NCBI GenBank assembly: GCA_020432045.1
Contig: JAGQHB010000085.1
Coordinates: 1 to 35,973, forward strand
Origin: Dehalococcoidia bacterium
GTDB taxonomy: Bacteria > Chloroflexota > Dehalococcoidia > Tepidiformales > Tepidiformaceae
Direction of reading: 5' to 3'
Length of the DNA: 35,973 nt
Positions 8,026 to 34,735 of this stretch are shown one piece after another. Numbering within the stretch: position 1 is the first letter of the stretch; each line of letters opens with the position of its first letter. The notes below the pieces were generated by a model that searched no databases, was not told the DNA's origin, and saw nothing but the letters and a program-made list of their open reading frames with translations. The position numbers and the translations under genes are program-made.

Positions 8026-8055
8026 TTTTACACGCCCGGCGGCTACGGTTTGGCA

Positions 8056-8640: not shown

Positions 8641-8644
8641 GAAG

Positions 8645-10270: not shown

Positions 10271-10287
10271 CAGAATTCTCCTTTCGG

Positions 10288-13200: not shown

Positions 13201-13231
13201 TGGAGGTCTTGTCTCCTGTGGTGATTCCGGG

Positions 13232-13252
13232 AGGGGGAGCTCCAATCCCCCT
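13232..13252 (-). promoter_or_regulatory. Leader hairpin of the leftward operon
   Basis: AGGGGGA (13232-13238) and TCCCCCT (13246-13252) form a perfect 7-bp stem with a 7-nt loop in the untranslated leader between the predicted promoter and the SWIM start. No T tract follows on either strand, so it is more likely a leader structure or protein site than a terminator. Confidence 0.4.
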
Positions 13253-13264
13253 TTCGGTACAATT

Positions 13265-13308
13265 ATTTTACCACTATGCGCAACTGTTGTACACATTGTT
13301 AGCAACAG
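13265..13308 (-). promoter_or_regulatory. Promoter and operator-like repeat of the leftward operon
   Basis: Read leftward, TGTACA (13288-13293) and TAAAAT (13265-13270), 17 bases apart, make a good -35/-10 pair in the only AT-rich stretch here. CTGTTG (13284-13289) and CAACAG (13303-13308) form an inverted repeat overlapping the -35, a likely operator. The rightward terminase genes start 20 bp beyond, so the site may regulate both directions. Confidence 0.55.
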
Positions 13309-13327
13309 AAGGACCGGTCATAATGAC

Positions 13328-17215: not shown

Positions 17216-18015
17216 GCACTGGCACGTACCACCTCGTCCGGTTCGCCCCGGACCCAGTACGCGACGAGCCGTTGAACATCGGTCTCGTGATGGCCGGCGA
17301 CTTTTCGCCGCGCGTGGCATTCCCTGAGGCCGCGCTCCAACGTGCCGCTCGTTGGTGTCGCACCCTAGACTCAAAGGGGCTGGTGGCGCTTCGGGATTAC
17401 CTCCAGGAGGCCCTCGAGCGCGCAGCGGCAACGGCCGCTGACATCGGTGAGGCAATTCGACCGGATTTCATGGGTGAGCGATTCGGTCCGGTAAGCGTCT
17501 CAGAGTCCCGATGGATCGACTTGCCAGACGATGAAGTCGACCTACAGGCGACGTTCGAGTTCCTTCTAGGTCGACTCGTTCTGCCTCCGAAGCAGGTGGC
17601 ATATGGCGGTGGCGGAAGCGCTGGAGAGAAGCTCGCGAAGGCCGTGTTGCCAGCAATCAAATCTGCCTTCCCGCGCGCTCACCTCAATGAGCCGCTCGTG
17701 GGCCGGAGCGGCCGCCCCTTCGTCGCAGACGTGTTCGCGAGTGGAAACAGGCCCTTAATCCTCAGCACCATCGTTCCGAGTTCTTCCTGGCAAGGCATAC
17801 GCCTCGTGGAGGCCAAAGCGTTCGAGATGTTTGACGTGGGTCGCACCATGAAATCGGCTTCTCTAGCGATTTGCGGCCAGTTCCCTTCGATCGACCCTGA
17901 GGGCGTGCAAGAGCAGGCCCGAGCTATCTTCGACTCGATCGAGGTTTCGATGGTCACTCCGGAGCGCATAAGAGCGCTGGTTGATGAACTCGCCGTATCT
18001 GCCGCCAGGGACTAA
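17212..18015 (+). CDS. DUF3037 protein, partner of HipA-like kinase
   Basis: 267 aa. The N-terminal block YHLVRFAPDPVRDEPLNIGL is the DUF3037 signature, followed by a helical middle and an α/β C-terminal part (RPLILSTIVPSSSWQGIRLV). Function unknown. The start overlaps the kinase stop, so the two are co-translated and the protein may be the kinase's inhibitor or substrate. It ends 66 bp before the helicase with no obvious terminator, so the defence operon may be read from the kinase promoter. Confidence 0.85.
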   Translation: MSTGTYHLVRFAPDPVRDEPLNIGLVMAGDFSPRVAFPEAALQRAARWCRTLDSKGLVALRDYLQEALERAAATAADIGEAIRPDFMGERFGPVSVSESRWIDLPDDEVDLQATFEFLLGRLVLPPKQVAYGGGGSAGEKLAKAVLPAIKSAFPRAHLNEPLVGRSGRPFVADVFASGNRPLILSTIVPSSSWQGIRLVEAKAFEMFDVGRTMKSASLAICGQFPSIDPEGVQEQARAIFDSIEVSMVTPERIRALVDELAVSAARD

Positions 18016-18081: not shown

Positions 18082-21000
18082 ATGCATGCGCCAGCCCCCG
18101 ACACCGTCCTAGAAGGCCCTTACTGGACCGATCCGGTCCGAGTGATCCGCGCTGTCAATGAGGGCGATGCGTTCCGTATCGAGTCGGTCTCGGCGCTCAC
18201 GGGCGATGGGTACTCCAACAAGCTGATCCCGAAGGCAGACTTCGAGCGCGATGTCCGCGAGGTGCTCTCCGGCGGACGCACGTTCGATGCCTCGCCACGC
18301 CTGTTTAGGCTCGCCACGGAGGCCTTGCGAACCCACTTGGCCCACGCATTCGACCCGCAGTTTGCCGTGTCCGTGTCGCAAGTCGATCCGCTGCCCCACC
18401 AGATCGAGGCCGTGTACAAACGCATCCTGCCGCTGCCACGCATTCGGTTCCTCCTTGCTGACGACCCGGGCGCCGGCAAGACCATCATGGCTGGGCTCCT
18501 GATGCGGGAGCTGATGCAGCGCCACGACGTGAAGCGAGTGCTGGTGCTATGCCCGAAGGCGATCACCGACCAGTGGCGCCGGGAGATGTGGGATCGGTTC
18601 AAAGAGAGGTTCCTGCTCCTGACGGGCGAGGTCATGGCCGCCACGTTTGGCGGCAACCCGTGGCTTGACAACGACCTCGTCATTGCCTCCGTCGACTTCG
18701 CTGCCCAGGAGCACATTCGCCCGAGCCTGGAACAGGCTACGTGGGACCTCATCGTCTTCGACGAGGCCCACAAGCTCTCGGCGTACCAGTACGCCGGCAA
18801 GGTGGACAAGACCCGGCGGTATCAGCTCGCTGAGGCGATTGGTGACCGCACCCGCCACTTGCTGCTGATGACAGCAACGCCTCATCGTGGTGACCCGGCC
18901 AACTTCCGGCTTCTTCTGGCACTGCTCGACCGCGACGTGTTCGCGTCGCAGTCCGGCGCCCAGGAGGCGATCGACCCCGACAACTCGCCGTTCTTCCTCA
19001 GGCGTATGAAGGAGACGATGCGCGACTGGGACAACAAACCGCTGTTCCTGCCCCGGCATGTCCTCACGCCGCCATACGACCTCAACCCTCACGAATTTGA
19101 CCTCTACGAGGAGGTCACCGACTACGTCCGGACCGGGATGGAACTGGCAGACCAGTCCGCCGAGAGCCGAGTGCGCCGCAATGTGGGCCTGGCGCTGACC
19201 ATCCTGCAGCGGCGGCTCGCGTCCAGCCTTTTCGCGGTAACGCGTAGCTTGGAGCGGCGGCAGGACAAGCTCACCGCGGCCCTGCAGATGTTGCGGGAGG
19301 GTGGAGGAGTAGCCAGCACGTTGGCTGGTACGACTGAGGAGTTCGACGAGGAAGAGGACGATACCGATGAGATCGAGCGGGCAGTTTCGGGTGCCTCGGC
19401 GGCTACGTCCGCGGAGCAGCTCGAGGCGGAAATCGAGCAGCTGAAGCTCCTCGTGGCGCATGCCCGCAGGGCGATGGCCCTTGGCCCGGAGCGGAAGGTC
19501 GAGGAGTTGCAGCGAGTCATCCGGGAGGCCACAGTCGCCGAGCACGACGAGAAGATCCTCATCTTCACCGAACACCGCGACACCTTGGAGTATCTAACCA
19601 CCCGCCTGCGCGAGTGGGGCCACTCGGTCGTCAACATCCACGGCGGCATGCAGCTCCCGGCCCGAATTGCGGCCGAGAAGGCGTTTCGGGGCGACGCGCA
19701 GTTCCTCGTGGCCACCGACGCGGCCGGGGAGGGCATCAACCTCCAGTTCTGCCGGGTAATGATCAACTGGGATCTGCCCTGGAACCCCAACCGGCTCGAG
19801 CAGCGGATGGGCCGTATCCATCGCTACGGCCAGAAATTCGAGGTGCAGATCTTCAACCTCGTGGCCATGAACACCCGCGAAGGCCAGGTGCTGGCGCGCT
19901 TGATGCTCAAGCTCGACCGGATGCGCGACGCACTTGGCCACGATCAGGTCTACGACGTAATCCAGCAGGTGCTCGACACCGGGCAGATCCGCCTCGACAC
20001 TCTCTTTCGCGAGGCCATCCTCAACCGACGGACGCTCGACGACATCCTGGCAGACTTCGATGCGCTCGAGACCGAGGCCGCTAAGGCGGCCGCCCGGGAT
20101 GCCCTGGGCGAGGCGCTGGCCACCCAGCACATCGACATGACCTTCCTCTTAGGCGAGGAGCGCGAGTCGAAGGAGCGGCGGCTCACGCCCGAGTTCGTCG
20201 AGCGGTTCTTCGTTGACGGCTTCGAGTACCTCGGCGGCAAACTGGCAAAGCGCCGCGACCAGACCTACAGGCTCGAGAAGGTGCCGACGGACCTGCGGAA
20301 GCTTGCCCAGGCATCCAATACGGGCGAGACGGGTGCAGAGAACCGGCCCATCACGTTCCGGAAGGAACGAGCGTCCAGTATCACCGAGCAATCGGCCGAG
20401 TTCCTGGCGCCCGACCACCCGCTCTTTGACGCGGTGACCGAGAAGGTCCTCGCTGCCGGCCGCCAGGCGCTGGCGCAGGGAACCGTGTTCATCGACAGCA
20501 CCGCGCGCGAGGCATACCTGGTCTGGCTGCTGGAGGTTGCCGCGAGGAACGGCATGGGCACCGAGGTGCACCGGCGCCTGCTGGGGCTGCGGCAATCCGG
20601 CGAAGCTTTCGACGCGGTCGAACCGGGCGTCTTGCTCGACCTCACTCCCTCGGATACGGCGCCCGTAGCCCCCGATAACATCCGAACACTGGCTGACGCC
20701 GACAGGGCGAGGTCCGAGGCCGGGAAGCTCTACGCCTACGAGTACCTTGCCCGCGTACGGGAGCAGCAAGAACGCGAAGTCGACATCGTGAGCAAGGCTT
20801 TGGAGTCGTCACTCGCCGACCAACTCGCGCACCTTCAGGCCGACCTGGAGCGGCAGAACGAGCAGAAGGAAGCCGGGCGCGACATGGACATTGCGATTCG
20901 CACCACGAGCCTGCGAATCGACGACCTACTTGCGGAGCGTGACCTGCGCCGGAAGGACCTCGCGCATCGCCGCGTTGTGTCGCTGGACGCCCCGAAGGTC

Positions 21001-21468
21001 GTTGGCGTGGCCGCTGTGCTACCTGGACCGATCCCGGTCACGTGGGAGAAGGGCGGTGCTGGCGGGGGCGACACCGGCGTTGTGGAGAGAGCAGGTATGG
21101 ACATCGCGATGGACTACGAGCGGGCTAACGGCCGTAACCCCGAGGATGTCTCCAAGCGCGGCGTAGGCTACGACATCAAAAGCACAGCGCCCGACGGAAG
21201 CGTCCGCTACATCGAGGCGAAGGCGCACACGACAACAGGCGATGTGACGCTGTATTACACGGAGCGCCAAATGGCCGAGCGTATGGGCGAGGAATTCTTC
21301 ATCTACGAAGTCAACTACGCACTCACGGACCCGCAGCTTCGCATCGTCCAGGATCCCGTGGGAAAAGGCATCGAGTTCGTTGAGAAGGTAGTCGAATATC
21401 GGATCGCTGCCGCAGCCATGGGGGAACATTCGGTTCTCGTAGAATTCAGGCCCGGCAGCGCCCTATGA
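18082..21468 (+). CDS. SNF2-family helicase with C-terminal DUF3883/nuclease-like domain
   Basis: 1128 aa. Walker A is DDPGAGKT (127-134), the DEAH box is at 227-230, motif III MTATPHR follows, and helicase C has IHGGM, TDAAGEGINL and QRMGRIHRYGQ (574-584). The C-terminal ~120 residues (GVGYDIKS..., YIEAKAH) match DUF3883, with D1031 and E1045-x-K1047 arranged like a PD-(D/E)xK nuclease core. It likely translocates on DNA and cuts or senses it. The architecture resembles the SNF2 helicases of DISARM class 1 (DrmD). First gene of the main operon. Its stop overlaps the DUF91 ATG. ATG 18082 is chosen. No Shine-Dalgarno is obvious. Confidence 0.9.
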   Translation: MHAPAPDTVLEGPYWTDPVRVIRAVNEGDAFRIESVSALTGDGYSNKLIPKADFERDVREVLSGGRTFDASPRLFRLATEALRTHLAHAFDPQFAVSVSQVDPLPHQIEAVYKRILPLPRIRFLLADDPGAGKTIMAGLLMRELMQRHDVKRVLVLCPKAITDQWRREMWDRFKERFLLLTGEVMAATFGGNPWLDNDLVIASVDFAAQEHIRPSLEQATWDLIVFDEAHKLSAYQYAGKVDKTRRYQLAEAIGDRTRHLLLMTATPHRGDPANFRLLLALLDRDVFASQSGAQEAIDPDNSPFFLRRMKETMRDWDNKPLFLPRHVLTPPYDLNPHEFDLYEEVTDYVRTGMELADQSAESRVRRNVGLALTILQRRLASSLFAVTRSLERRQDKLTAALQMLREGGGVASTLAGTTEEFDEEEDDTDEIERAVSGASAATSAEQLEAEIEQLKLLVAHARRAMALGPERKVEELQRVIREATVAEHDEKILIFTEHRDTLEYLTTRLREWGHSVVNIHGGMQLPARIAAEKAFRGDAQFLVATDAAGEGINLQFCRVMINWDLPWNPNRLEQRMGRIHRYGQKFEVQIFNLVAMNTREGQVLARLMLKLDRMRDALGHDQVYDVIQQVLDTGQIRLDTLFREAILNRRTLDDILADFDALETEAAKAAARDALGEALATQHIDMTFLLGEERESKERRLTPEFVERFFVDGFEYLGGKLAKRRDQTYRLEKVPTDLRKLAQASNTGETGAENRPITFRKERASSITEQSAEFLAPDHPLFDAVTEKVLAAGRQALAQGTVFIDSTAREAYLVWLLEVAARNGMGTEVHRRLLGLRQSGEAFDAVEPGVLLDLTPSDTAPVAPDNIRTLADADRARSEAGKLYAYEYLARVREQQEREVDIVSKALESSLADQLAHLQADLERQNEQKEAGRDMDIAIRTTSLRIDDLLAERDLRRKDLAHRRVVSLDAPKVVGVAAVLPGPIPVTWEKGGAGGGDTGVVERAGMDIAMDYERANGRNPEDVSKRGVGYDIKSTAPDGSVRYIEAKAHTTTGDVTLYYTERQMAERMGEEFFIYEVNYALTDPQLRIVQDPVGKGIEFVEKVVEYRIAAAAMGEHSVLVEFRPGSAL

Positions 21469-22496
21469 AAAAGTCCATGGCCTGGGAGATAGCCAACGCG
21501 GGCGTTCCCCGCCGGCTGGAACACGCTTCCATTGCGCTCGAAGAGCACCTGGAAGACTGGATCGACGCTGATATTGGCATCGTCGCGGACGACGTGTTGC
21601 TTATCGGCCGCCAGCTAAGGACCGAGGACGGCACCTATTTGGACCTACTCGGCATCGACCGCAGCGGTGACCTCGTTGTCATCGAACTGAAGCGCGACAA
21701 GACGTTGCGCGACACGGTGGCCCAGGCAATCGACTACGCCGAATGGTGCTACCGGCTGTCGGATGACCGCATCATGGACATCGCCGCGGCCCGCTACGGC
21801 GGCGAGGAACAGTTCCGCGATACGTTCACATTGCAGTTGGGCGTCCCCTTTCCGGAGTCGCTGAACGGCCGCCAAAGGCTGCTCGTCGTTGCGCCGACCA
21901 TTCCCGACCATACGTCTCGTGTCATCGAATACCTGGCGAAGGTCTATACGGTGCCCATCAGCGCCGTGGACTTCGATGTGTTTGGGCTGGACGGCAAGCG
22001 AATCCTCGTGCGGCACACGGTGGTGGAGGAAGCTACAACAGGCGAACTCCCGGCGCCGCGACCTTCGCAGCCAAGGCGAAGCCTCGAGGACTTCATCGCG
22101 CTGGCACACGAGAACGGAGTAGGGCCGTTGTTCGAGCACCTGCTGACGATGAAGGACGTCCTGCCGCTGTCGGAGCGATTCCAGACGAGCTTTGCGATGA
22201 AGGCCAAGACCTTCGACAAGCGAGTGCTGGCCGGCTTCACCGTCTACCCGACCGCGGATACGAACCCGGGCTTCCTCCACCTGGTGATGTCGCCGGCGAA
22301 TCTCTCCGTCTTGTACGGGTGCACCGATGAGATGGCCGAGGCGTTCATCCGCCAGGTGCAAGGCATCGGCAGCCCTGGACGGGAGTGGACCGGCTGGATC
22401 GGGACACACTTCGAGACGTTGGAGCAGGTCCAGGAGTTCGACCGGGCGTTCAGGGCGCTCGCTGCCGAGGCGCCGGTGCAGGTGATATCGACGTGA
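21465..22496 (+). CDS. DUF91/NucS-like PD-(D/E)xK nuclease protein
   Basis: 343 aa. The N-terminal half carries a restriction-endonuclease-like core: YLDLLGIDRSGDLVVIELKR gives D60 and E74-x-K76, followed by the helix TVAQAIDYAEWCYRL, as in the DUF91/endonuclease NucS family. The C-terminal half (about 200-340) is an unassigned α/β region with RPSQPRRSLEDF at the junction. The start overlaps the helicase stop, so it is probably a partner nuclease of that helicase. The DNA structure it cuts cannot be told. Confidence 0.85.
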   Translation: MKKSMAWEIANAGVPRRLEHASIALEEHLEDWIDADIGIVADDVLLIGRQLRTEDGTYLDLLGIDRSGDLVVIELKRDKTLRDTVAQAIDYAEWCYRLSDDRIMDIAAARYGGEEQFRDTFTLQLGVPFPESLNGRQRLLVVAPTIPDHTSRVIEYLAKVYTVPISAVDFDVFGLDGKRILVRHTVVEEATTGELPAPRPSQPRRSLEDFIALAHENGVGPLFEHLLTMKDVLPLSERFQTSFAMKAKTFDKRVLAGFTVYPTADTNPGFLHLVMSPANLSVLYGCTDEMAEAFIRQVQGIGSPGREWTGWIGTHFETLEQVQEFDRAFRALAAEAPVQVIST

Positions 22497-22544: not shown

Positions 22545-23381
22545 ATGGATAGTGGCTGGGGGCGTCTTGAACGTCGGATCGCCCGCGAGCTGGATGAGTA
22601 CGCCCAAGCCCTGGAAGCGCACGTGCAGCCAATTCCACGGGCACAGGAACGCAGGGGGCTCGCGCTTGCGCTGCTAGCCAGCACCTTGCCGGAGGCGTTT
22701 TCCCCTGATCTGCGGGATCACGCGATCGAGCTTGCGCGCGACATCCTCCGGCGGGATGACTACGCGACCTATGGTTGGTATGCCGGCGCGTCCATCCTGA
22801 CCACGGCCTTCGCGCTCACCTCCGACCGCTGCTTCGCCGACCCGATCGTCGCGAACATCGACCACCACTCGTCCGAACTTCGCGATCTCATGGACGAGAC
22901 CGTGGCGTTCATCGCTTCCAGCCTAGCGTTCGACGACCTCGAGCCGAGGGTGGCAAGCAGCCTGGAACACCATCACCTCGGCGCCGAGATGGCCGTGTAC
23001 CTGTTGATGATGAGCCGCGACAGCGAGGACCGGAAGCGCTCGTGGGCGATGACGCAACTCGACCGGCGGCATAACGAACCGGTGGTCGAAATCCTCGAGC
23101 GTGTAGCGAACGATCAGCTCATCGTAAATCCCTTCCTTCCCCTGCTGATGGATGTTGTCGCGGCTACCGCCGGACTGGTGCTGTCTGCACTGGCACCGGT
23201 CTCGGAAGAGCACGACGGCCCGTACCAAACGCAACTAGCGTTGGGGTCGGGGAGCCCTGACCGACCGCAGCTCGCGGAGGCCGGGACGTGGTTCTTCGAA
23301 CGCCTAGCACGGCTTCCTGCCCTACGGCCGGCGGTGACCCTCAGCGAACTGTCCCCCGTCGAAGCGGGGAATCATGGCTAA
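22545..23381 (+). CDS. Unknown helical protein of the defence operon (A)
   Basis: 278 aa, no family recognised. Almost entirely α-helical in appearance: RIARELDEYAQALEAHVQPI, then repeated helical hairpins (ERRGLALALLASTLPEAF, LVSRDSE-like loops, VEILERVANDQLIV). A hydrophobic stretch FLPLLMDVVAATAGLVLSAL near the C-terminus could be a membrane segment or a buried helix. No catalytic motif is visible. It follows a 48-bp gap and overlaps the next start by eight bases. It could be a scaffold or effector specific to this system. Confidence 0.8.
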   Translation: MDSGWGRLERRIARELDEYAQALEAHVQPIPRAQERRGLALALLASTLPEAFSPDLRDHAIELARDILRRDDYATYGWYAGASILTTAFALTSDRCFADPIVANIDHHSSELRDLMDETVAFIASSLAFDDLEPRVASSLEHHHLGAEMAVYLLMMSRDSEDRKRSWAMTQLDRRHNEPVVEILERVANDQLIVNPFLPLLMDVVAATAGLVLSALAPVSEEHDGPYQTQLALGSGSPDRPQLAEAGTWFFERLARLPALRPAVTLSELSPVEAGNHG

Positions 23382-23877
23382 GCCTCTCCTCACCGACGAC
23401 CGGGTTCGCGAGATCCTCGCCGAGCCCAAGGCGATCACTGAGGCTGAGTACCGCAGCCTGAGCCGGAAGGGCCGACGAAAGTCGAACCGCGCGTTCACCG
23501 AGATGACACTCGAGTTTACGTCCGAATCTGGCGCGTTCCGCATCCATGCCCAGCGCCACGTTTCCAATGCTCTACAATTCGCGATCCAGCTCATGTACAT
23601 CGACCCTGATGGCAACGAATACCGTTTGCTACGGCACGCGGGGCGCAGCGGGCCCCATACGAATGAACTCGAACGACAGGAACGCCGGGCTGATACTCGT
23701 GTTGGCGACCGCTTCCGAATCAATCGCCTGACCGAGCGCTACCAGGCGAGCCAGTACGAGGAGGACGGGTACGCTGAGAGCGCCGGCATTCAGTTCGCCG
23801 ACTTCGATTCAGCCCTGCGCACGCTCTGCGAAGAGGCACACATCACCTGGCCCACCCAACAGGGCCAGTTGCTTTAG
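23374..23877 (+). CDS. Unknown protein of the defence operon (B)
   Basis: 167 aa. The N-terminus is helical and basic (ILAEPKAITEAEYRSLSRKG, RRKSNRAF), then β-rich EMTLEFTSESGAFRIHAQRH and LQFAIQLMYIDPDGNEYRLL, and a conserved-looking HTNELE-x-Q segment. It starts eight bases inside the previous gene and is followed 11 bp later by the DUF1828 gene. Genes of this size and layout often precede DUF1828 proteins, suggesting a functional pair. Function unknown. Confidence 0.8.
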   Translation: MAKPLLTDDRVREILAEPKAITEAEYRSLSRKGRRKSNRAFTEMTLEFTSESGAFRIHAQRHVSNALQFAIQLMYIDPDGNEYRLLRHAGRSGPHTNELERQERRADTRVGDRFRINRLTERYQASQYEEDGYAESAGIQFADFDSALRTLCEEAHITWPTQQGQLL

Positions 23878-23888: not shown

Positions 23889-24668
23889 ATGGACACATCG
23901 ACTATTGCCACTGAGTTCAAGGAGAAGTTCTGCTCGTCGGTGAACCTGAGGCAGGAGAGCCTCACGCGCTACTTTGTAGACACGCCGTTTCTGCTTCCGG
24001 GCGGCGACCACCTGCCGGTGATTCTCGAGGAGACCCCTGCGGGCCTGCGGCTGACCGATGACGGTGAGACGTTCATGCAGCTCGCCTTGTTGATACCTAA
24101 CTTCGACCAGGGGAACCGCTGGAAGGCGCTCCAGGATGCTCTGGAGGCCCGTCGGGTACGCCACGCCGAGGGGGTCCTCAGTATCGATGTCCCCGACGGA
24201 CTCTATGCCGAATCGCTCAGCAGCTTCGTCCAGGCGCTCACCGAGGTGATGGAGTTTCGTCGGTGGACTCGTGAGGCAGTCCGCGACACCTTCCGTGAGG
24301 ATGCCGAGTCGCTCGTCGCGGCGCTGCCGGAGGAACTCGTCCCGGCAAAGGAATTCGGCTATAGCGAACCGGAGTTCGATAGCGCGGGCCTCTACACAGT
24401 GGACGCCCTTATCCGGCCGGCGCAGAGTGCCAGGGATGTCGTCGTCATGTTCGTAGGCAACAACGACCAGTGCCGCGACGCGACCATTACGCTGCTCCAG
24501 TGGGAGCGGTGGAACCGGCCCCACGACTCGATTGTCCTATTCCGCGACGAAGAAGAGATTGCCCGAAAGCCCCGCGCCCAACTCGGGGACATTGCGGAGA
24601 AGAGCTTTTCCAGCCTTTCGGTGGCCCGGGAACGCTTACCACGCTGGCTGGAAGAGCACGCCTCATGA
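23889..24668 (+). CDS. DUF1828/DUF1829 protein
   Basis: 259 aa. The N-terminal DUF1828 block shows VNLRQESLTRYFVDTPFLLP, then LEETPAGLRLTDDGETFMQL. The C-terminal part (AQSARDVVVMFVGNNDQCRD, then IVLFRDEEEIARKPRAQLGD) fits DUF1829. Such proteins occur in prophages and defence loci without a known activity. Its stop overlaps the DUF1156 methylase ATG (ATGA), so it is translated together with the modification enzyme. Confidence 0.85.
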   Translation: MDTSTIATEFKEKFCSSVNLRQESLTRYFVDTPFLLPGGDHLPVILEETPAGLRLTDDGETFMQLALLIPNFDQGNRWKALQDALEARRVRHAEGVLSIDVPDGLYAESLSSFVQALTEVMEFRRWTREAVRDTFREDAESLVAALPEELVPAKEFGYSEPEFDSAGLYTVDALIRPAQSARDVVVMFVGNNDQCRDATITLLQWERWNRPHDSIVLFRDEEEIARKPRAQLGDIAEKSFSSLSVARERLPRWLEEHAS

Positions 24669-27529
24669 CTGAACGACGCAAGCGCCTGATCGAGGTGGCT
24701 TTCCCGCTGGAGGAGGTGTCGGAGCACTCGCGGCGGGAGAAGAACGTGCGGCACGGGCACATCTCGACGCTGCACATCTGGTGGGCGCGGCGGCCGCTGG
24801 CAGCCTGCCGGGCGTTCATCTACGCCTCGCTGGTCGACGACCCGCCGAGCGAGGCGGAGCGCGAGGAGCTGCTGAAGGAAGTCGCCGACATCGCCAGCTG
24901 GGACGCCGTGCGCAAGCCCGACGAGGTGGTGCGACCGCAGGCGAAGGGCGGCAGCGGGTTGACCGGCGCCCAGCTGCTGGAGCGGGCCCGCGAGCGCATC
25001 CTGCGCGACAACGGCGGCAAGGCGCCGCGCTTGCTCGATCCGTTCGCCGGCGGCGGCGCTATCCCCCTTGAAGCGCTGCGGCTGGGCTGCGAGGTGGAAG
25101 CGAGCGACCTGAACCCGGTGGCCGTGCTGATCCTGAAGGGGACCGTGGAATATCCGCAGAAGTACGGCCGCCCGCTGGCCGAGCAACGCGAGAAGCGCCC
25201 CGACGACTGCGCCGGCGTGGACGGCCAGGTGCCGCAGTACATCCGCGACGCGGGCGGTAGCGCGCAATCGAGCTTTGGTGAAGGCGACGCCGTTGCGGCG
25301 TACGAGAAGAACCCGCTGGCCGCCGACGTGCGCTACTGGGGCAACTGGATGCTGGAGAAGGCACGCGAAGAACTGGCCGAGTTCTATCCGGCAGACCCCG
25401 ATGGCAGCGTGCCGGTGGCGTACCTGTGGAGCCGGACGGTGCCCTGCCCGAGCTGCGGCGCCGAGATGCCCCTCATCCGCCAGTACTGGCTGGCGCGCAA
25501 GGATAAGAAAAAGGTGGCGCTGCAGCCCGTGATCGACCGGGCGAACAAGCGCGTGGACTTCGAAGTCGTTGAAGGGCCAAACGTCAGTGGTGACCCAGGG
25601 GAAGCGACGACATCCCGAGGTGACACGCTGTGTCTGGTTTGCAGTCAGACCGTGAAGGCGGCCTATGTACGTGATGCCGGCATGCAAGGTCGAATGTCGG
25701 CGATTCCGACTGCGGTCGTCCTTGAGGCCAAAGGCGCCGGTGGGAAGCGTTATCGGGCGGACTTGGACATCGATCGGCAGGCGTATCAGAAAGCGGTCTC
25801 CCGCCTCGCCGAGATGGAGCGCGACCATGATGGCGACCTCCCTCTCGTTCCTGACGAGCCGATGCCGAGGCACCTGACTGGCGGCGTCATCACAGCGTTT
25901 GGATACGACACGTTCGGCAAGCTGTTCAACGCGCGGCAGATGGTGGCGCTGACCACCTTCGCCCGCCTCGTCCGCGAGGCCCACGCAGAGATGGAGGCCG
26001 CCGGCCTCGGCGATGGGTACGCGAAGGCGGTAGTGTCGTACTTGGGGCTAGCTGTGGATCGCCTTGCGGACTACAACAGCACGTTGGCCCGGTGGGTCAG
26101 TTCCGGCGAGTTCACTGCGGGAACATTCGCTCGTCAGGCGCTCCCGATGGTTTGGGACTACTCCGAGGTCTGCCCAATGCAGGTCACCGCGGGTGCATTT
26201 CCTGGTGCTGTTGAATGGATCGCGCTGATCATCGGCGCCGAGGCGTTCGACGCCGCCTCGGCGATCGTCGTCCAACGGGATGCACGGTTGACGTCATCGG
26301 GATTCTCGGCTGTTGTGACAGATCCGCCGTACTATGACGCGATCAACTACGCCGACCTATCGGACTTCTTCTACGTATGGGCGAAACGCTCCCTGGGCGG
26401 CATTGTGACTGATGCACTCGCCTTGCCCCTCACGCCGAAACGGGAACAGGCGGTGATGAACGTCTACTCCAGCGGTGGAGGAGGCAAGGACGCGGCGCGC
26501 AAGCACTACGTGGATTCCATGGCAGAGTCATTCGGGGCCATGTCCAACTCCCTTGAGGCAGACGGGATGGTCTCGGTCGTCTTCGCCCACACCGACCCCG
26601 ACGCCTGGGCCACTCTAATCGACGGTCTGCTCGCGGCTAACCTCGTGCCCGATGCCAGCTGGCCGATCGACACCGAACGCGGCGACAAGGTGTCGAATCT
26701 CGGGCAAGCCCGTCTAAAAACCTCAGTCTGGATGGCCTGCCGCCCCCGCAAACCGGATGCGGGCCCGGCGTTCCTTGGTGACCTTCGCGAAGAGCTGCGT
26801 GAGAACATCGAGGGAAAGCTGCTCGACTTCTGGCGGCGCGGCATCCGCGGCGTGGACTTCTTTCTCAGCGCGATCGGTCCAGCGCTCTCCGTCTATGGGC
26901 GTCACACGAAGGTGCTGCGGCCCGACGGCAGCGAGGTCGATGTCCGTGAGTTCCTCGACATTGTCCGGCGCGAATCGACCCGCGTGGCGCTCCAACAGGT
27001 GCTCCAGGGCCAAGACCTCGGCGTCATCGACGAGCCCACGCGCGCATACGTCACCTGGGTCTGGAGCTACGGAAAGGCCGCGCTTGACGCCGGTGAAGCC
27101 ATCGCCCTCTGCCTGGCCACCGGCGCGGACCTTGACGACGTCTCGCGGCCCCACAGCATCGCCGAGCCAGCGAAGGAGAAAAGCAAGAAGGTCTACCGCC
27201 TACGCAGCATCGCTGGCCGGGCCCGCAACGACGAACACCTGGGCCAGGCGAACGGGGCCAAGGCCACGCCACTCATCGACCAGCTCCAATACGGCGCCTG
27301 GCTCTGGAGCACCAACCGCAGCGCCGACCTCGCGAAGTACCGGGCAGAACTCGGCGAACAACGCTGGCACGCCGTCCGCGTCCTCGGCCAGGCCGTCGCC
27401 GACTGCCTCCCCGACAACGACGAGGACCGGCGCATCATCCACGGGATGCTAGGGTCGGGCGCGGCGTCGGGCGCGGCTCCTGTGGCCGCGCCAGCGACCT
27501 CCCAAGGACGATTGGAGCTGGATCAATGA
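24665..27529 (+). CDS. DUF1156 adenine-specific DNA methylase with zinc ribbon
   Basis: 954 aa. The N-terminal DUF1156 domain has LIEVAFPLEEVSEHSRREK and STLHIWWARRPLAACRAFIY. SAM motif I is DPFAGGG (125-131) with acidic ASDLNPV. A zinc ribbon uses C261/C264 and C323/C326. Catalytic motif IV is DPPYYDAINY from residue 553, typical of N6-adenine methylases. This is the COG1743 type: Zn-ribbon adenine methylase. It likely marks self DNA for the helicase/ATPase/nuclease set. The long insert between motifs I and IV may contact the target. GC content falls noticeably after about 25556, hinting at a mosaic gene. ATG 24665 overlaps the previous stop. Confidence 0.93.
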   Translation: MTERRKRLIEVAFPLEEVSEHSRREKNVRHGHISTLHIWWARRPLAACRAFIYASLVDDPPSEAEREELLKEVADIASWDAVRKPDEVVRPQAKGGSGLTGAQLLERARERILRDNGGKAPRLLDPFAGGGAIPLEALRLGCEVEASDLNPVAVLILKGTVEYPQKYGRPLAEQREKRPDDCAGVDGQVPQYIRDAGGSAQSSFGEGDAVAAYEKNPLAADVRYWGNWMLEKAREELAEFYPADPDGSVPVAYLWSRTVPCPSCGAEMPLIRQYWLARKDKKKVALQPVIDRANKRVDFEVVEGPNVSGDPGEATTSRGDTLCLVCSQTVKAAYVRDAGMQGRMSAIPTAVVLEAKGAGGKRYRADLDIDRQAYQKAVSRLAEMERDHDGDLPLVPDEPMPRHLTGGVITAFGYDTFGKLFNARQMVALTTFARLVREAHAEMEAAGLGDGYAKAVVSYLGLAVDRLADYNSTLARWVSSGEFTAGTFARQALPMVWDYSEVCPMQVTAGAFPGAVEWIALIIGAEAFDAASAIVVQRDARLTSSGFSAVVTDPPYYDAINYADLSDFFYVWAKRSLGGIVTDALALPLTPKREQAVMNVYSSGGGGKDAARKHYVDSMAESFGAMSNSLEADGMVSVVFAHTDPDAWATLIDGLLAANLVPDASWPIDTERGDKVSNLGQARLKTSVWMACRPRKPDAGPAFLGDLREELRENIEGKLLDFWRRGIRGVDFFLSAIGPALSVYGRHTKVLRPDGSEVDVREFLDIVRRESTRVALQQVLQGQDLGVIDEPTRAYVTWVWSYGKAALDAGEAIALCLATGADLDDVSRPHSIAEPAKEKSKKVYRLRSIAGRARNDEHLGQANGAKATPLIDQLQYGAWLWSTNRSADLAKYRAELGEQRWHAVRVLGQAVADCLPDNDEDRRIIHGMLGSGAASGAAPVAAPATSQGRLELDQ

Positions 27530-27783
27530 GTGAACCGTGGCACCTGCCGGCACAGGACTGGGCCCACGCAAGGGACAGTCCTGGCCACCACCGAATTCTT
27601 GAGGTTTATCGCCACAGCTGGCATCTCGAGGCCCACTGCCTGCCTGGTGAAACTGTTTGGCACTGCACGGCCGTTGCCGAGGGTATCACACCGCTCGAGG
27701 ACACCATCACCGCCGCGTTTGATGACCCGGAGCCCGCAGTGCAACGTTGCTATGCCATGGCGGATGCCCGAATGGAAACCTAG
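27526..27783 (+). CDS. Small unknown protein between methylase and ATPase, 85 aa
   Basis: It starts SEPWHLPAQDWAHARD, is rich in His, Trp and acidic residues (HRILEVYRHSWHLEAHCLPG), and ends PEPAVQRCYAMADARMET. ATG 27526 overlaps the methylase stop (ATGA). A competing overlapping frame (27530-27805) is Arg/Pro-rich and looks like a shadow. No family is recognised. Its place between methylase and ATPase suggests an adaptor. Confidence 0.6.
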   Translation: MSEPWHLPAQDWAHARDSPGHHRILEVYRHSWHLEAHCLPGETVWHCTAVAEGITPLEDTITAAFDDPEPAVQRCYAMADARMET

Positions 27784-27820: not shown

Positions 27821-30800
27821 ATGCCCCCCACAGAAACCCTCAGCAACTTCGCCGCCCTCAGCGAGGGCATCAAACGCTACACAGACGCCATGCGTCTGTT
27901 CATCCGCGAGAAGCTCATCGCGAGGTATCCAGAGACCTGGTTCGAGACTGGCGTTCTCAAGAACCTGAATGAGGGCCAGCGCCGAAACCTCCAGCGGGAG
28001 TTGAAGGGGCGGGTGGACCTCAAGCCCGCCGAGAAGCTGGATCTGCTCGATCCGAATCACTTCGGCCGCATCATCGAGCGCGAGTTTCGTGGGGCGTTCG
28101 ACGGCGTTTTCGGCGAGTTCAATCAGGCGCAGTCCTACCTGAACCAGGCAACGAACGCTCGGAATCGCAACATGGCGCATTCACGAAGCGGCGACATCCT
28201 CAAAGATGATGCGCTCGAAGGGCTACGGGCGATGCAAAAGCTGCTCGAAGCCGCAAGCCTGCCAGAGGCTGAAGAAGTGCGGAAGCTCTGGGAGCGTGTG
28301 AACGCCGGTGGCTCAGAAACTGCCGTAGCTGAACCAGAAGTCACACCGAAGGCGCCAGCCGCGGCCCAGCCAGCACCGAAAGATGCGCTGCCGTACTGGT
28401 GGCAGGTCACCGAACCGTGGGACGGCTTCAAGAACCCCAACGCTATCGACGAAGGGCTGTTTGCCGCGACCCTCGGCGCCGTGCATGCCGGCAGCGCCAG
28501 GCCCGAATACCAGGACGCGACCCGCTTCTTCGAACACACCTACTTCACACAGCAACTTAAGCAGACCATCGCCGACGTTCTCAGTCGCATGGGCGGCGGT
28601 GACGGAGCGAGCGTCACCGAGATGCAGACGCCTTTCGGCGGCGGGAAGACCCATGCCCTCCTGGCGCTCTACCACCTCGTCAGCCATCCGGATGAGTCGC
28701 TCGCTGTCCCGGGCGTTGAGGAGGCTCTTTCCGGGATCGCAGTGCCGCATGGGGCAAGTGTCGCCGTCATCGACGGCGGCGAGATGGGTGTCGAGGAGCA
28801 GCTGAAGGAAGACCAGACTTCGGTCTCGACGCTTTGGGGCGAGATTGCCTATCAGCTCGATCCGGTTGCCTACCGGAAACATGTCCAGGCCTCGGACGAT
28901 AAGGGCGAGGCTCCGGGCAACGCCGCTTACCGGGCTGTGCTGGAAGCAGCGTCGCCGGCGCTGATCCTCATCGACGAGCTGATCAGCTACCTGGTCAAGC
29001 TCAAGTTCTCGAACTCCAGGCGGACCATGAACCTCTACCGGCAGACGGTTCAGTTCATGCAGGAGTTCATGCAGGAAGCGGGCAACGTCCCAGGCGTGTG
29101 CGTGGTCGTCACCTTGCCCAAGAGCCAGCAGGAGTTCGGCGGCATCGACCCTGAGCAGTTGCAGCGGGAGCTGGGCATCGTGGACGAGATCAAGCCGCGC
29201 GCGGACCGCGTGGTCTCGAAGCGCACCCCGGTCTCCGACGAGGAGGTCTACACACTCCTCAGCAAGCGCCTCTTCAAGCGCCCTGACCCGGCGGAGGTGA
29301 ACCGCGTCATCGATGCGTACTACCAGGCCTACGAAGCGGGTCGTGAAAAGGGCTTCTACGACCCGAATGTCTTCACCACCGACTACCGGCGTCAGATGGT
29401 GGAAGCCTACCCGTTCCACCCGGAGTTCGTCGACGTGCTCTACAAGAAGTGGGGAGCCCAGGGCGACTTCCCCCGCACGCGCACCGTATTGCAGCTGCTC
29501 GCCAATGTTGTCGCCGACCAGTGGGCTACCAAGAGGCATGCCTACCTCATCCAGTCGGCTCATGTGAACCTCGAGCGCGAGCGCATCCGCACGAAGATCC
29601 TCAGCGCGATCGGTGCGAGCGTGGCCAACGACTCGGTCGTAGCTGCCGACATCATCGGCGGAGACGCCCACGCCGACGGTTTCGACGAGCGGCAGTCGGG
29701 GATGTACCAGGACCACAAAATTGCTCGCGGCGTGGCAACGACCTTGCTGTTGCATTCGGCCGGCGGCCAACTTCGTGCAGGCGCGCTGCCGTCGGACATC
29801 CGCATAGGCACGGTGTCGCCGCTCATCGGTCCCGAGTATCCCGACGAAGTAATCGCCGAGCTGGAGGAGACTCTCTGGTACGTCCACCGCAGCGGCGAGC
29901 TGCTCCAGTTCCAGTCGAAGCAGAACCTCTATCGCCGCATCGCCGAGACGGCACAGACTCAATCGCCACACCAGGTTACCGAGAAGCTGCACCAGGTCAT
30001 GACAGCCGCGGCGGGCAGCGGTGAGGGCTTCCGTGTGCTCCAGTGGGCAGGCGAGGACGGTGCGATTCCGGATGCTCCTGAGCCAGCGGTGGCGATTCTG
30101 GCCCCTGCGCCCACGTATCGCATCTCGGACGACGGAGGTCAGCCCGCCGGACAGGAAAGGGCGGCAATCGAGGGTCTTTGGAACAAGAGTGGCGGCGGAC
30201 TGCGGAGGTGGCGCAACGCCCTCATCCAGGTGGCCCCCGACCGCGAGGCCTGGGACCGCGCCGAACAGGCCACGCGCGAGGTGATGGCCTACGAGACCGT
30301 GCTCTCGGGTAAGGGTTCCGGTGAACTATCGGAAGGCGAGAAGAAGGACCTCCAGGCGCGCAAGCGGGACAAAGAGCAGAGCCTGCGCACGAGCCTGGTG
30401 ACCGCCTACCGCTGGGTGTTTTATCCAGGCGACGAGGGAAAACTCGAGTCAATCGCGCTCCCGACCGCTACCGCAAACGAAACCATCGCCCGGCGCGTCG
30501 TGGATCGACTCGAGAGCCACGACTACGGGTCACCGAAAATCCTCCGGGCCATAAGCGCGATGTTCTTCCAGGCCAAGATCCAGCCGCGGGTCTGGGAAGA
30601 CGCCGGCACCGAGCTGGAGGTTGGCGAACTCGTGCGCCGCTTCTCGGAGTGGACGTTCCTCCCAATCCTGCCCGATCGAGTGGGGACGATTCGTGCCTGC
30701 ATCAGCGACGGCATTGACAAGGGCGCCTGGGCACTCGCATATGGCATCCCCGGCCAGGCGCGACGACTTATCGAAAAGCCGGGCGAGCTGAACGCTATCC

Positions 30801-31225
30801 CCGACCTCCTCGATGGCGCCAGCTTCCTGGTGCGCGACGAACTGCTGGAGCTGTACCGCGAGCAATTCGGCAGGGTCGATGAATCCCAGGATCCGAAGCC
30901 CCCCGAGCCGCCCGTGGGTGGTGGCCAGGGTGGCGGCGCCAGCGGCGGACCCGGCGGAGGCACTGGTGGCGGAGTTCAGACGCCGGTCCCTCAGCCCGCC
31001 ACACGCCACTCGCGGGTCCGCATCCGTGTCACCGACATGCCAGTCGCTAAGAGCACCAACCTGCAGCCCTACCTCTGGAAGGTCCTCCAGGGCGTCGACA
31101 TTGACACGAAGCTGAGCATCACGGTCGAGGTCGAAAGCGCTGCCGGGGTTCCGGAGGACGTGCTCAACGGCCGAATTGTCGAGGGGCTGGAGCAACTGGG
31201 GATACAGGTGGAGTGGGAGGCGTAG
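27821..31225 (+). CDS. DUF499 AAA+ ATPase with N-terminal Swt1-type HEPN domain
   Basis: 1134 aa. The N-terminus (about 8-140) is helical and ends with ARNRNMAHS, giving the HEPN ribonuclease motif R114-N115-x4-H120, as in Swt1-type HEPN domains. The DUF499 ATPase (COG1483 type) follows: Walker A FGGGKTHAL (272-280), Walker B LILIDEL with D385/E386. Residues near 1030-1055 are a Gly-rich linker, then a conserved C-terminal α/β domain (LQPYLWKVLQGVDIDTKLSI). Large ATPases of this family pair with DUF1156 methylases. The likely role is a switch or translocase in target sensing. ATG 27821 has GGAGG seven bases upstream. Confidence 0.9.
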   Translation: MPPTETLSNFAALSEGIKRYTDAMRLFIREKLIARYPETWFETGVLKNLNEGQRRNLQRELKGRVDLKPAEKLDLLDPNHFGRIIEREFRGAFDGVFGEFNQAQSYLNQATNARNRNMAHSRSGDILKDDALEGLRAMQKLLEAASLPEAEEVRKLWERVNAGGSETAVAEPEVTPKAPAAAQPAPKDALPYWWQVTEPWDGFKNPNAIDEGLFAATLGAVHAGSARPEYQDATRFFEHTYFTQQLKQTIADVLSRMGGGDGASVTEMQTPFGGGKTHALLALYHLVSHPDESLAVPGVEEALSGIAVPHGASVAVIDGGEMGVEEQLKEDQTSVSTLWGEIAYQLDPVAYRKHVQASDDKGEAPGNAAYRAVLEAASPALILIDELISYLVKLKFSNSRRTMNLYRQTVQFMQEFMQEAGNVPGVCVVVTLPKSQQEFGGIDPEQLQRELGIVDEIKPRADRVVSKRTPVSDEEVYTLLSKRLFKRPDPAEVNRVIDAYYQAYEAGREKGFYDPNVFTTDYRRQMVEAYPFHPEFVDVLYKKWGAQGDFPRTRTVLQLLANVVADQWATKRHAYLIQSAHVNLERERIRTKILSAIGASVANDSVVAADIIGGDAHADGFDERQSGMYQDHKIARGVATTLLLHSAGGQLRAGALPSDIRIGTVSPLIGPEYPDEVIAELEETLWYVHRSGELLQFQSKQNLYRRIAETAQTQSPHQVTEKLHQVMTAAAGSGEGFRVLQWAGEDGAIPDAPEPAVAILAPAPTYRISDDGGQPAGQERAAIEGLWNKSGGGLRRWRNALIQVAPDREAWDRAEQATREVMAYETVLSGKGSGELSEGEKKDLQARKRDKEQSLRTSLVTAYRWVFYPGDEGKLESIALPTATANETIARRVVDRLESHDYGSPKILRAISAMFFQAKIQPRVWEDAGTELEVGELVRRFSEWTFLPILPDRVGTIRACISDGIDKGAWALAYGIPGQARRLIEKPGELNAIPDLLDGASFLVRDELLELYREQFGRVDESQDPKPPEPPVGGGQGGGASGGPGGGTGGGVQTPVPQPATRHSRVRIRVTDMPVAKSTNLQPYLWKVLQGVDIDTKLSITVEVESAAGVPEDVLNGRIVEGLEQLGIQVEWEA

Positions 31226-31229: not shown

Positions 31230-32582
31230 ATGACCCCTAACCCCGCGTCCCAAACATGGAAGCCGCATGTTGCTCGAGCAGGCCCGTACCGATGGGATGG
31301 CGACACCGCGCCTTCAGAACCAGGCGAGCAAAGGACGAACATCGAGCCATGGCTCGCCGCGCTTGTTCAAGCTGAACATGTAAATCTCCTCGTTGGTAGC
31401 GGGCTTACGACAGCCGTGGCCACGCTCGCAGGCGCTACAACCGTTGACATGGGCTCAGTACCTTTCGAATGCGAACTTGGCAATGTGGTGGATCGAGTGG
31501 TGGTAGAGAGTGCTGGACGAGCGGAACGGGGCGAGCCCAACTTGGAGGATCAAGTCCGGACGGCTCGCGAGTTGATAGCGGGGCTGCGCATCCTCTCCGC
31601 CGACGGCAGCGACCTTAGCGACCGCGCAACTCAGCTGCTCAAGACTTGGGAGACCGAACTGGACGCGCGATTGCGGAGCCTGCTCGGTGGGGTTCTGAAT
31701 ACAGAACGCGAGATCGACGCGGCGCTTCGCTCCGGGACGGCTGATGCAAACCGTATCCGACGCCTCCTCTCCTCCTTCCTCCTAACGTTCGCGAGCCGCG
31801 CAGCCTCGCGGGAACGACTGCATATCTTCACAACGAACTACGACCGCTTGATCGAGTACGGTGGCGATCTTCTTGGTCTGCGGATTCTCGACCGCTTCGT
31901 AGGTCGCCTGGAACCGGTCTTCCGCGCCTCCCGACTTGGTGTCGATTTGCACTACAACCCGCCCGGCATCAGGGGAGAGCCCCGCTACCTCGAAGGAGTC
32001 GTGCGCCTGACCAAGCTCCACGGCTCGGTCGACTGGCGTCAAGGCGAGAGCGGTGTTGGTGGGCCACGCATCGTTAGGGAGGCGCTTCCATTCGGTGCTC
32101 CATCGGATCATCCGGCGCTGCCGTCGAGCCCGCGCGAGGGCCTCATCGTCTACCCCAATCCCGCCAAGGACATCGAGACGCTCGAGTATCCCTATGCTGA
32201 GTTGTTCCGCGACTTCGCGGCCGCCGTCTGCCAACCCAACACCGTGGTCGTGACCTACGGCTATGGATTCGGCGATGACCACATCAATCGAGTTCTGCGG
32301 GACATGCTCACGATTCCATCCACGCACCTCGCGGTTCTCTCATACGACGAAGCTTCAGGCCGCATCGAGCGGTTCGTCGAAGCTGTCAGTCGTGATGAGC
32401 AGTTGACCCTGCTCATTGGCAATCACTTCGGCGACCTGGAGGAGCTCGTCAACTACTATCTCCCGAAACCCGCGATCGACAGCACGACCTGGCGCATGAT
32501 CGAACTCGTCAACCGGCGGACGCCGCATAATGTGCCGGTGCCGCGACACGAACCGGACGACGCCGCGGGTTCGTCAGCATGA
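31230..32582 (+). CDS. SIR2-like domain protein (predicted NADase)
   Basis: 450 aa. SIR2 fold motifs: LLVGSGLT (54-60ish, replacing the usual GAG), FTTNYDRLIE with N203 and D205, KLHGS with catalytic-type H264, and YGYGFGDDHINRVL (343 onward). Residues needed for NAD+ binding and hydrolysis are present. In phage defence, SIR2 proteins paired with HerA ATPases degrade NAD+ on infection. Here herA follows with an ATGA overlap, so they probably form one complex. ATG 31230 is chosen, four bases after the ATPase stop. The frame before it overlaps that gene. An insertion at about 75-190 is helical and unassigned. Confidence 0.9.
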   Translation: MTPNPASQTWKPHVARAGPYRWDGDTAPSEPGEQRTNIEPWLAALVQAEHVNLLVGSGLTTAVATLAGATTVDMGSVPFECELGNVVDRVVVESAGRAERGEPNLEDQVRTARELIAGLRILSADGSDLSDRATQLLKTWETELDARLRSLLGGVLNTEREIDAALRSGTADANRIRRLLSSFLLTFASRAASRERLHIFTTNYDRLIEYGGDLLGLRILDRFVGRLEPVFRASRLGVDLHYNPPGIRGEPRYLEGVVRLTKLHGSVDWRQGESGVGGPRIVREALPFGAPSDHPALPSSPREGLIVYPNPAKDIETLEYPYAELFRDFAAAVCQPNTVVVTYGYGFGDDHINRVLRDMLTIPSTHLAVLSYDEASGRIERFVEAVSRDEQLTLLIGNHFGDLEELVNYYLPKPAIDSTTWRMIELVNRRTPHNVPVPRHEPDDAAGSSA

Positions 32583-34735
32583 CTTCCATGATCCAGGCCC
32601 TTGGCGATCGGGCAGTTGGCACCGTGGAAGGGGTCTCCGCCAACCAGATCACCGTTCTGCTCGAGCCTGACGCACCGCAAGCGACGGCGCTCAACACCGC
32701 GGTGCCTGCGGGGTTTCCCCGCATCAATGGGTACCTGCTCGTTCCAAACGAAGCTGGGGCGACCGTGGGCGTGATCACGAAAGTGGAGGTCGAACGGCTC
32801 CCGTATCCAAAGCGCCGCGGCATGCAGGACTTTGGGCTCGTCGACCTGCCATTCCCCGGACGGAAGGTGTCGCTGACGCCCCTCGGAACGCTTGTCCTCA
32901 AGCCAGCAGGCGCGGGAGGGGAACTGAGCGTCGCAGTGCGTCGTGGAGTGGATGTATTCCCTTCTGTCGGCGATATCGTCATTCTTCCGACAGTCGCCCA
33001 GCTTCGCGCCATCGTAGAAGGCGAAGGCGGCCACCAGGCGCAGCGCGTGCAACTCGGAACTTGCCCGACAGCGGCAGGTGCGCCGGTCTATGTCGATCCC
33101 GACAAGCTCTTCGGCCGACATCTCGCGGTGCTGGGGAACACTGGCGCAGGCAAATCATGCTCGGTTGCTGGCCTCATCCGATGGTCACTCGATGCAGCGC
33201 GCATCGCGCGGACGAACGGCGGCAGATCGGAGGCACCGAACGCCCGGTTCATCATCCTTGATCCGAACGGAGAGTACGCAAAGGCATTCGACGGACTTAA
33301 CGCGCGCCTTTTCCAGGTTGAGCCCAAACCGGGTGTTAACACCCTCAAGGTTCCAGCATGGATCTGGAATGGAGAGGAATGGGCTGCGTTCACGGCCGCC
33401 GCGCCCGGTGTGCAGCGTCCGATTCTGTTCGATGCCATTCGAAGACTGCGTTCAGGCGGTGTAATGCCGGACGCCCTGCAATCACGCGCCCGTGCCCGAG
33501 TGAAGCGGTATAGGACCGCGCTCAAATTGAGAATCCAAGAAGGAGACCACCTCCAGCAAGGACGCCGCGAAGGAGTTGCGCAGCTTCTGCTCAATGCCGC
33601 GGAGGACTTCGCGGAAGTTGCCAGCGCCGCCGAGGGATCCAACCACGGCCTCCGCGACCTTCTCTCGGCAGTGGCCGAAACTTGCACCCAGGTGGAGGAG
33701 GCAGCACGAGGCCGGCGCCGGGATGGGGGCGGATTCTGGCATGATGACTTCTCAGAAGCGAGCCTGGGGACAGTTGAAACCGCCCTAACTGCGGCTGGAG
33801 CTTCGGTCGGTCTTGTCAACGACGAGCCGAGTGCCGGCGAGGATGTCCCTCTCCCGTTTCCGGTGGACGAGCTGCCCGCCTATGTCGAGGCCCTCGCTGC
33901 GGATGTGAGTGGCCGAGACGTAGCCCAATTCGTGGACTCAATGAACCTGCGAATCCGGGGGCTGTTTGCGACGGGACCGCTGGCATCCGTCCTTGACCCA
34001 GACGGGTCCCCGACGACCACGTTGGAGCAATGGCTCACCGACTACGTTGGTGGCGACGACGGAGGGAATGGTCCGCTGACCGTCATCGATCTGTCGCTTA
34101 TCCCGTCCGAAGTGATTCACCTGATAGTGGCTGTATTGGCACGCGTCATCTTCGAGGCGGTCCAGCGCTATCGGCGTATCCATGGCTCGGTACTCCCAAC
34201 GGTGCTCGTTCTTGAGGAAGCGCATACATTCGTCCATCGCGACCTGGCCACCGAAGGCGCCCCGCAGTCTGGTAGGGCCTGTTGCCGGACGTTCGAACGT
34301 ATCGCCCGCGAAGGGCGGAAATTTGGTCTTGGCCTTGTGCTCGCGTCGCAGCGCCCATCAGAAATGTCCGCCACCGTGCTGTCGCAGTGCAACACGTTCC
34401 TCCTCCACCGGATCGTCAACGATCGCGATCAGGATTTAGTCCGCCGTCTGGTCCCAGACGCTCTCGGAGACCTCTTGCGTGACCTGCCGAGTCTGCCGTC
34501 CAGGCGTGCGGTGCTTCTCGGTTGGGGAGCACCCGCGCCGGTCCTTGTCGAGGTGCGTGAGCTTCCGGCGGCTCATCGCCCACAATCCCCTGACCCTGAG
34601 TTTTGGAAGGTCTGGACGGGTGAGGACGAACGGAAGGTCGGCTGGGAATCCATTGTGCGTGAGTGGCAGGGAGCAGACTCCTCCAGGACTCCGCTGACGG
34701 ACGAGCAGGATCCGGGAGCGCCCGATCCCCCGTGA
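32579..34735 (+). CDS. herA: HerA-like DUF87 ATPase, partner of SIR2
   Basis: 718 aa. The N-terminal part (about 10-80: AVGTVEGVSANQITVLLEPD) resembles the HAS-barrel. FtsK/HerA ATPase: Walker A GNTGAGKS (186-193), a helical insertion around 300-420, Walker B VLVLEEAH (542-549), then LVLASQRPSEMSATVLSQCN (sensor region) and an arginine-rich C-terminal part. HerA proteins form hexameric DNA translocases. Paired SIR2-HerA is a known anti-phage arrangement in which the ring hosts and activates the NADase. The start overlaps the SIR2 stop. Last gene of the operon. Confidence 0.92.
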   Translation: MTSMIQALGDRAVGTVEGVSANQITVLLEPDAPQATALNTAVPAGFPRINGYLLVPNEAGATVGVITKVEVERLPYPKRRGMQDFGLVDLPFPGRKVSLTPLGTLVLKPAGAGGELSVAVRRGVDVFPSVGDIVILPTVAQLRAIVEGEGGHQAQRVQLGTCPTAAGAPVYVDPDKLFGRHLAVLGNTGAGKSCSVAGLIRWSLDAARIARTNGGRSEAPNARFIILDPNGEYAKAFDGLNARLFQVEPKPGVNTLKVPAWIWNGEEWAAFTAAAPGVQRPILFDAIRRLRSGGVMPDALQSRARARVKRYRTALKLRIQEGDHLQQGRREGVAQLLLNAAEDFAEVASAAEGSNHGLRDLLSAVAETCTQVEEAARGRRRDGGGFWHDDFSEASLGTVETALTAAGASVGLVNDEPSAGEDVPLPFPVDELPAYVEALAADVSGRDVAQFVDSMNLRIRGLFATGPLASVLDPDGSPTTTLEQWLTDYVGGDDGGNGPLTVIDLSLIPSEVIHLIVAVLARVIFEAVQRYRRIHGSVLPTVLVLEEAHTFVHRDLATEGAPQSGRACCRTFERIAREGRKFGLGLVLASQRPSEMSATVLSQCNTFLLHRIVNDRDQDLVRRLVPDALGDLLRDLPSLPSRRAVLLGWGAPAPVLVEVRELPAAHRPQSPDPEFWKVWTGEDERKVGWESIVREWQGADSSRTPLTDEQDPGAPDPP

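Follow-up and report, generated by a model that had tools for sequence, protein, structure and literature searches.

Does the large DUF499 ATPase encoded in this stretch of Dehalococcoidia DNA also carry a domain that could give its operon an RNA-cutting output? The window, by which we mean the whole 35,973-nucleotide stretch analysed (contig JAGQHB010000085.1), contains a gene for such an ATPase, HmaC, at whose N-terminus the first-pass annotation had placed a Swt1-type HEPN domain with an intact ribonuclease motif. The gene and its parts are the following:

27821-31225, plus strand: HmaC (HEPN-DUF499 ATPase) open reading frame, 1134 aa, with the start ATG at 27821 preceded by GGAGG
27821..28312, plus strand: HEPN_Swt1-like domain of HmaC, residues 1-164 (PF18731 match, AlphaFold2, VIA-align)
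28160..28180, plus strand: active-site motif R114-N115-R116-N117-M118-A119-H120 (Rx5H; R and H invariant, at the end of a helix in the model)
28313..31225, plus strand: HmaC linker, DUF499 AAA+ ATPase and C-terminal part (PF04465, PADLOC HmaC)

The Pfam model HEPN_Swt1 (PF18731) matches HmaC residues 20-144 with an E-value of 1.9e-6, and the score of 28.6 bits lies barely above the curated cut-off of 27.5. DUF499 (PF04465) matches the ATPase part with an E-value of 4.5e-36, and the PADLOC HmaC profile scores 379 bits over residues 193-1112, leaving the HEPN part uncovered; the NCBIfam model DUF499_antiphage matches HmaC below its own cut-off. The ATPase motifs are intact, a P-loop (GGGKTH, about residues 273-278) and a Walker B motif (LILIDE, about 381-386), both largely invariant in the close clade. 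When the Pfam HEPN model was run against the genome of this organism, nothing was returned at E<=0.001, which we read as a limit of sensitivity, since HmaC itself scores 28.6 bits. Comparison of full HmaC with PDB sequences gave low-complexity matches only, and viral contigs scanned with the single HmaC protein gave no relative.

AlphaFold2, run on residues 1-164 from an 18-sequence alignment, predicted a confident helical bundle (pLDDT 92.8, pTM 0.86) of eight helices (9-35, 40-48, 51-63, 69-75, 78-87, 100-120, 128-144 and 149-162). R114 to H120 form the end of helix 100-120, and two helices follow. When this model was compared with known structures using VIA-align, the top rows were mostly HEPN proteins: the C-terminal HEPN of yeast Swt1 ranked first (4pqz, Z 9.2, rmsd 3.3, 123 residues aligned) and AbiF second (8vz6, Z 8.6, rmsd 4.6, 153 aligned), and Csm6 (6tug, Z 6.8), 1wwp (Z 6.0) and a HEPN-MNT protein (8xeh, Z 5.5) also stood in the top seven. 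Helical bundles with Z under about 13 may share their arrangement only, and Foldseek alone found no match in the PDB at E<=0.001, so that we take the predicted fold match as supportive, not decisive. The eukaryotic Swt1 HEPN is reported to be catalytically inactive, and AbiF, to our knowledge, is not fused to an ATPase as HmaC is. Taken together, fold match, profile match and motif make the HEPN identity of the HmaC N-terminus convincing, and the Swt1-type assignment of the first-pass annotation is borne out.

The motif as bare letters is unremarkable and weak evidence alone. The string ARNRNMAH occupies HmaC residues 113-120, with the R114 codon at 28160-28162 and the H120 codon at 28178-28180, and when the 165-aa domain is shuffled, a pattern R[NDH]x3-5H arises in 7% of cases, against 34% for the whole protein. 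What lifts the motif above chance is homology. DUF499 relatives were drawn from Chloroflexota genomes, GTDB contigs and IMG/VR and chosen by the length of the part preceding the P-loop (225 residues or more), so that the motif played no part in the choice; 53 of them, together with the window HmaC and one added HEPN-REase protein, made up an alignment of 55 sequences. R114 and H120 are its only invariant columns (55/55). A chance motif is rejected on this ground, despite the 7% of domain shuffles, and the conservation that the earlier reading presupposed for both residues is found throughout. An asparagine directly follows the motif arginine in 50 of the 55 domains, as N115 does in the window. 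The motif is also kept in plasmid homologues from Thermus, Rhodococcus and Gloeocapsa (RNRWAH, RNKWAH, RNTWAH, RNCWAH). In a check for the conserved acidic residue of helix 2 (Ex3[KR]), E30 was present in most close-clade members, yet off the column of the 'VERE' glutamates of the main group.

Only part of the earlier description of an intact motif can be kept. Arginine and histidine stand at the active-site position, whereas the spacing differs: 53 of the 55 domains have Rx4H, mostly as RNxWAH, and the window has RNRNMAH, i.e., Rx5H, a departure that passed unnoticed in the first reading. The window stretch from LNQA to ARN aligns without gaps up to R114/N115 with the closest relative, L031, which shares 64% identity overall. 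R114 therefore corresponds to the motif arginine of the relatives, and the insertion of one residue follows it. R116 as the catalytic arginine (Rx3H) is ruled out by the same alignment and because a spacer of three lies outside the known range. A 2013 survey of the superfamily gives the motif as Rx4-6H, places it where helix 3 ends, and notes families with a spacer of six (PMC3710099). Rx5H thus lies inside the superfamily range but is unusual for the Swt1-like, DUF499-fused family.

Relatives of this HEPN domain are also fused to partners other than DUF499. In L029 (G064:C88:78727-82173, 1492-3264), a HEPN_Swt1 domain (RNEYAH) that is 41% identical to the window HEPN over the domain lies N-terminal to an HsdR_N-type nuclease domain. 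In L177 (G278:C11:449500-452800, 1316-2920), a HEPN_Swt1-like domain below the Pfam cut-off (RNRAAH) precedes a DndB/DGQHR-type protein. L175 (G035:C22:4800-7600, 662-1999) has a HEPN-like domain (RNTQVAH) fused to OST-HTH/LOTUS and may possibly be an RNA-directed RNase, and L176 carries a HEPN relative N-terminal to an uncharacterised C-terminal part. In the tree, L029, L175 and L176 fall inside the window clade (9 rows, support 95/91), L175 and L176 on long branches. The HEPN module is mobile, and its varied defence partners together with the retained arginine and histidine fit an effector domain.

HmaC stands in an operon of codirectional genes separated by small overlaps or gaps:

18082..21468, plus strand: HmaA, SNF2/DrmD-like helicase with a C-terminal NOV_C/DUF3883-type PD-(D/E)XK nuclease (PADLOC 733 bits; Helicase_C, NOV_C)
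21465..22496, plus strand: NucS-C-like nuclease-type open reading frame (PDC-S11), in the same transcription unit as HmaA and HmaC
23374-23877, plus strand: DUF6978-like open reading frame (below cut-off), also in the L031 Hma operon
23889-24668, plus strand: DUF1828 open reading frame, also in the L031 Hma operon
24665..27529, plus strand: HmaB, DUF1156 N6-adenine DNA methyltransferase (PADLOC 455 bits; DUF1156)
27526..27783, plus strand: 85-aa open reading frame between HmaB and HmaC, with an ATGA overlap with HmaB and no Pfam match

An uncharacterised open reading frame sits between the NucS-like and DUF6978-like ones, and the order continues behind the 85-aa frame with HmaC, SIR2 and HerA. 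For HmaB, the ATG at 24665 is the likelier start compared with the GTG at 24470 of the listed frame. The operon of L031 has the same order (HmaA, DUF6978, DUF1828, HmaB, small ORF, HmaC), including a homologue of the 85-aa protein in the same position (60 bits), and lacks the NucS-C-like gene; the order helicase, methylase, ATPase is conserved across the Hma loci compared. Hma systems combine a DUF499 ATPase, a DUF1156 N6-methyltransferase and an SNF2 helicase in one operon, and all three are present here, whereas the marks of Type-2 systems (a DUF3780 gene, HKD/PLD on the helicase) were absent among the open reading frames scanned. The nuclease motif of HmaA can be read in its sequence (YDIKS...YIEAKA). 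A C-terminal PD-(D/E)XK nuclease on the helicase occurs in 79% of Type-1 BREX-related (BR) systems. Among 43 neighbourhoods, HEPN-bearing HmaC always stood with an HmaA that carries its nuclease motif, as far as the neighbourhood reached the HmaA end, and the idea that HEPN compensates for a nuclease-less helicase is unsupported.

Several other genes lie near or within these operons. Directly upstream of HmaA (window 16421-18015) are a weak, below-cut-off HipA_2-like and a DUF3037 open reading frame. Window 83-15471 holds a phage DAM-like/GNAT protein (5287-6597), ParB-like open reading frames and small and large terminase subunits (13148-13855 and 13852-15471), with a tRNA-Leu at the edge; this region next to the defence operon is a phage-like or satellite element. 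On a plasmid of Gloeocapsa sp. PCC 7428 (L173, 2401-4777), an AAA ATPase and DUF4435 pair, PARIS-like by annotation, is placed inside the Hma operon between helicase and methylase. Similar slots hold Fic and HicAB in Thermus (L171) and DUF262 in Rhodococcus (L172), which suggests that operons of this kind offer room for cargo.

According to the first-pass annotation, discussion of the family normally treats it as nothing but an ATPase, which does not agree with the literature. The fusion was described in 2013 as 'Ava_2192', HEPN plus a novel AAA+-ATPase (DUF499), belonging to the Abi2/Swt1 HEPN clan and labelled 'Active' (Anantharaman et al. 2013, PMC3710099). That type shares with the window the N-terminal Swt1-like HEPN with its R...H, the C-terminal DUF499 AAA+ part and an operon of restriction-modification components, with a methylase and an SNF2 helicase that bears a DUF3883 nuclease; the window differs by Rx5H and in that its transcription unit also includes SIR2-HerA and a NucS-like gene. 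A survey of 2026 reports HEPN-fused DUF499 in 1370 of 2446 Type-1 BR taxa and proposes a last-resort suicide RNase role for it (NAR 2026, PMC12839542). As described (PADLOC 2021, PMC8565338; PMC12839542), Hma or Type-1 BR systems share with the window the HmaA helicase-nuclease, the HmaB DUF1156 methylase and the HmaC DUF499 protein, and the window operon carries additional genes. RefSeq names HmaC homologues, including those on annotated plasmids, 'Swt1 family HEPN domain-containing protein'. To regard the HEPN-DUF499 fusion as an overlooked family property is thus wrong; what the window adds is one more case, with Rx5H as its oddity. No experiment that addresses HEPN activity in a DUF499 protein turned up in the literature searched.

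Since the domain is a Swt1-type HEPN whose active-site position carries arginine and histidine, an RNase output is plausible. Active HEPN RNases generally require two facing domains, as in Csm6 and Cas13. A model for such pairing is offered by BrxC of BREX, which shares with HmaC a homologous AAA+ core and downstream domains, dimerises via its C-terminus and via ATP and forms DNA-dependent oligomers (PMC13326643); an N-terminal HEPN, in contrast, is not reported for BrxC in the BREX papers cited here. The reading we favour, with a probability of roughly 0.7, is that of a HEPN-fused HmaC in a Hma/Type-1 BR restriction-like operon whose oligomers pair HEPN domains and cut RNA as a back-up. HmaB would methylate self DNA, HmaC, by analogy with BrxC, would scan unmodified invader DNA or assemble on it into an oligomer that depends on ATP, and HmaA would degrade the invader DNA. 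Oligomerisation of HmaC would bring its N-terminal HEPN domains together as dimers, and these could cut RNA, a growth-arresting output alongside DNA cleavage by HmaA. We infer RNase activity, its dependence on oligomerisation as trigger, an RNA target and a suicide role for the HmaC HEPN, and the 'switchable' RNase of the first-pass annotation is to be taken in the same sense. Against this reading we count the Foldseek result, the VIA-align Z values, which helical bundles may reach by arrangement only, the barely passing Pfam score, Rx5H, the replaced motif tryptophan and the variability of the N115 position in the close clade.

The last three points would suit a HEPN that is catalytically weakened or dead because the extra residue turns H120 away from R114, leaving only RNA or DNA binding or HmaC dimerisation. 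The single other DUF499 case of Rx5H among the 55 domains (L034, RDQTAAH) comes from a MAG in which the HEPN-DUF499 gene (JAERMM010000323.1, 1225-4687) is split by frameshifts. In the close clade, moreover, the second motif position is relaxed (L in two members, L032 with RLDVSH and L004 with RLEHAH, and D in one), with loss of the polar asparagine in these two, and the tryptophan, replaced in the window, is relaxed there as well. Mere binding, however, would not need the arginine and histidine that all members keep, and the spacing of the motif is variable by its published definition; the independent HEPN-LOTUS protein L175 also has Rx5H, and AlphaFold2 confidence holds through the helix that carries the extra residue. 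We consider a weakened domain rather unlikely. The window HEPN is probably an active RNase, its activity likely yet less certain because it has Rx5H instead of the family's Rx4H.

HEPN might instead be part of DNA restriction, in substrate handling or as an accessory to DNA looping by the AAA+ part, with no RNA target. The fusion to the ATPase of a restriction-modification-like operon, whose helicase already has a nuclease, would fit such a role, and DNA looping by the AAA+ part was suggested in 2013 (PMC3710099). The invariance of the catalytic pair speaks against it, as do the active HEPN enzymes known so far, which cut RNA; in RNase L, PrrC and RloC the HEPN motif is required for this activity. 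Furthermore, many DUF499 proteins without HEPN keep the same operon, which makes HEPN an accessory to the restriction machinery rather than a core component of it. We hold a purely DNA-directed role to be very improbable and retain the RNA-cutting back-up.

Behind HmaC, starting 4 bp after it and in the same direction, lies a two-gene module, a defence pair of the SIR2-HerA type:

31230-32582, plus strand: SIR2 (PADLOC 558 bits; GSGLT, TTNYD and KLHGS present)
32579-34735, plus strand: HerA (PADLOC 866 bits; overlaps the end of SIR2)

In 43 other loci, HmaC had no SIR2-HerA next to it. Relatives of SIR2 occur widely on plasmids, and none was found in 399 other genomes of the phylum at E<=1e-20. 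The organism's genome contains another SIR2-HerA pair at a different place (G000:C53), with no Hma gene in the approximately 1 kb fetched upstream. These observations led us to reject SIR2-HerA as integral to a Hma subtype; because SIR2 is common on plasmids and a second pair exists elsewhere in the genome, it appears as a separate inserted module. The Rx5H motif might mark a HEPN in transition, whose RNase output is in this lineage altered or released from constraint while the SIR2-HerA NADase adds to layered DNA, RNA and NAD+ outputs, possibly with a shared sensor, an idea that we find quite doubtful.

The window locus represents no new kind of system. Conservation and structure together confirm that strict selection acts on just the two catalytic residues in the HEPN part of Hma/BR ATPases, so that single mutants can put the published 'last-resort RNase' proposal to the test. 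The window copy is a natural Rx5H variant, useful for learning how far the spacing of the HEPN motif may vary.
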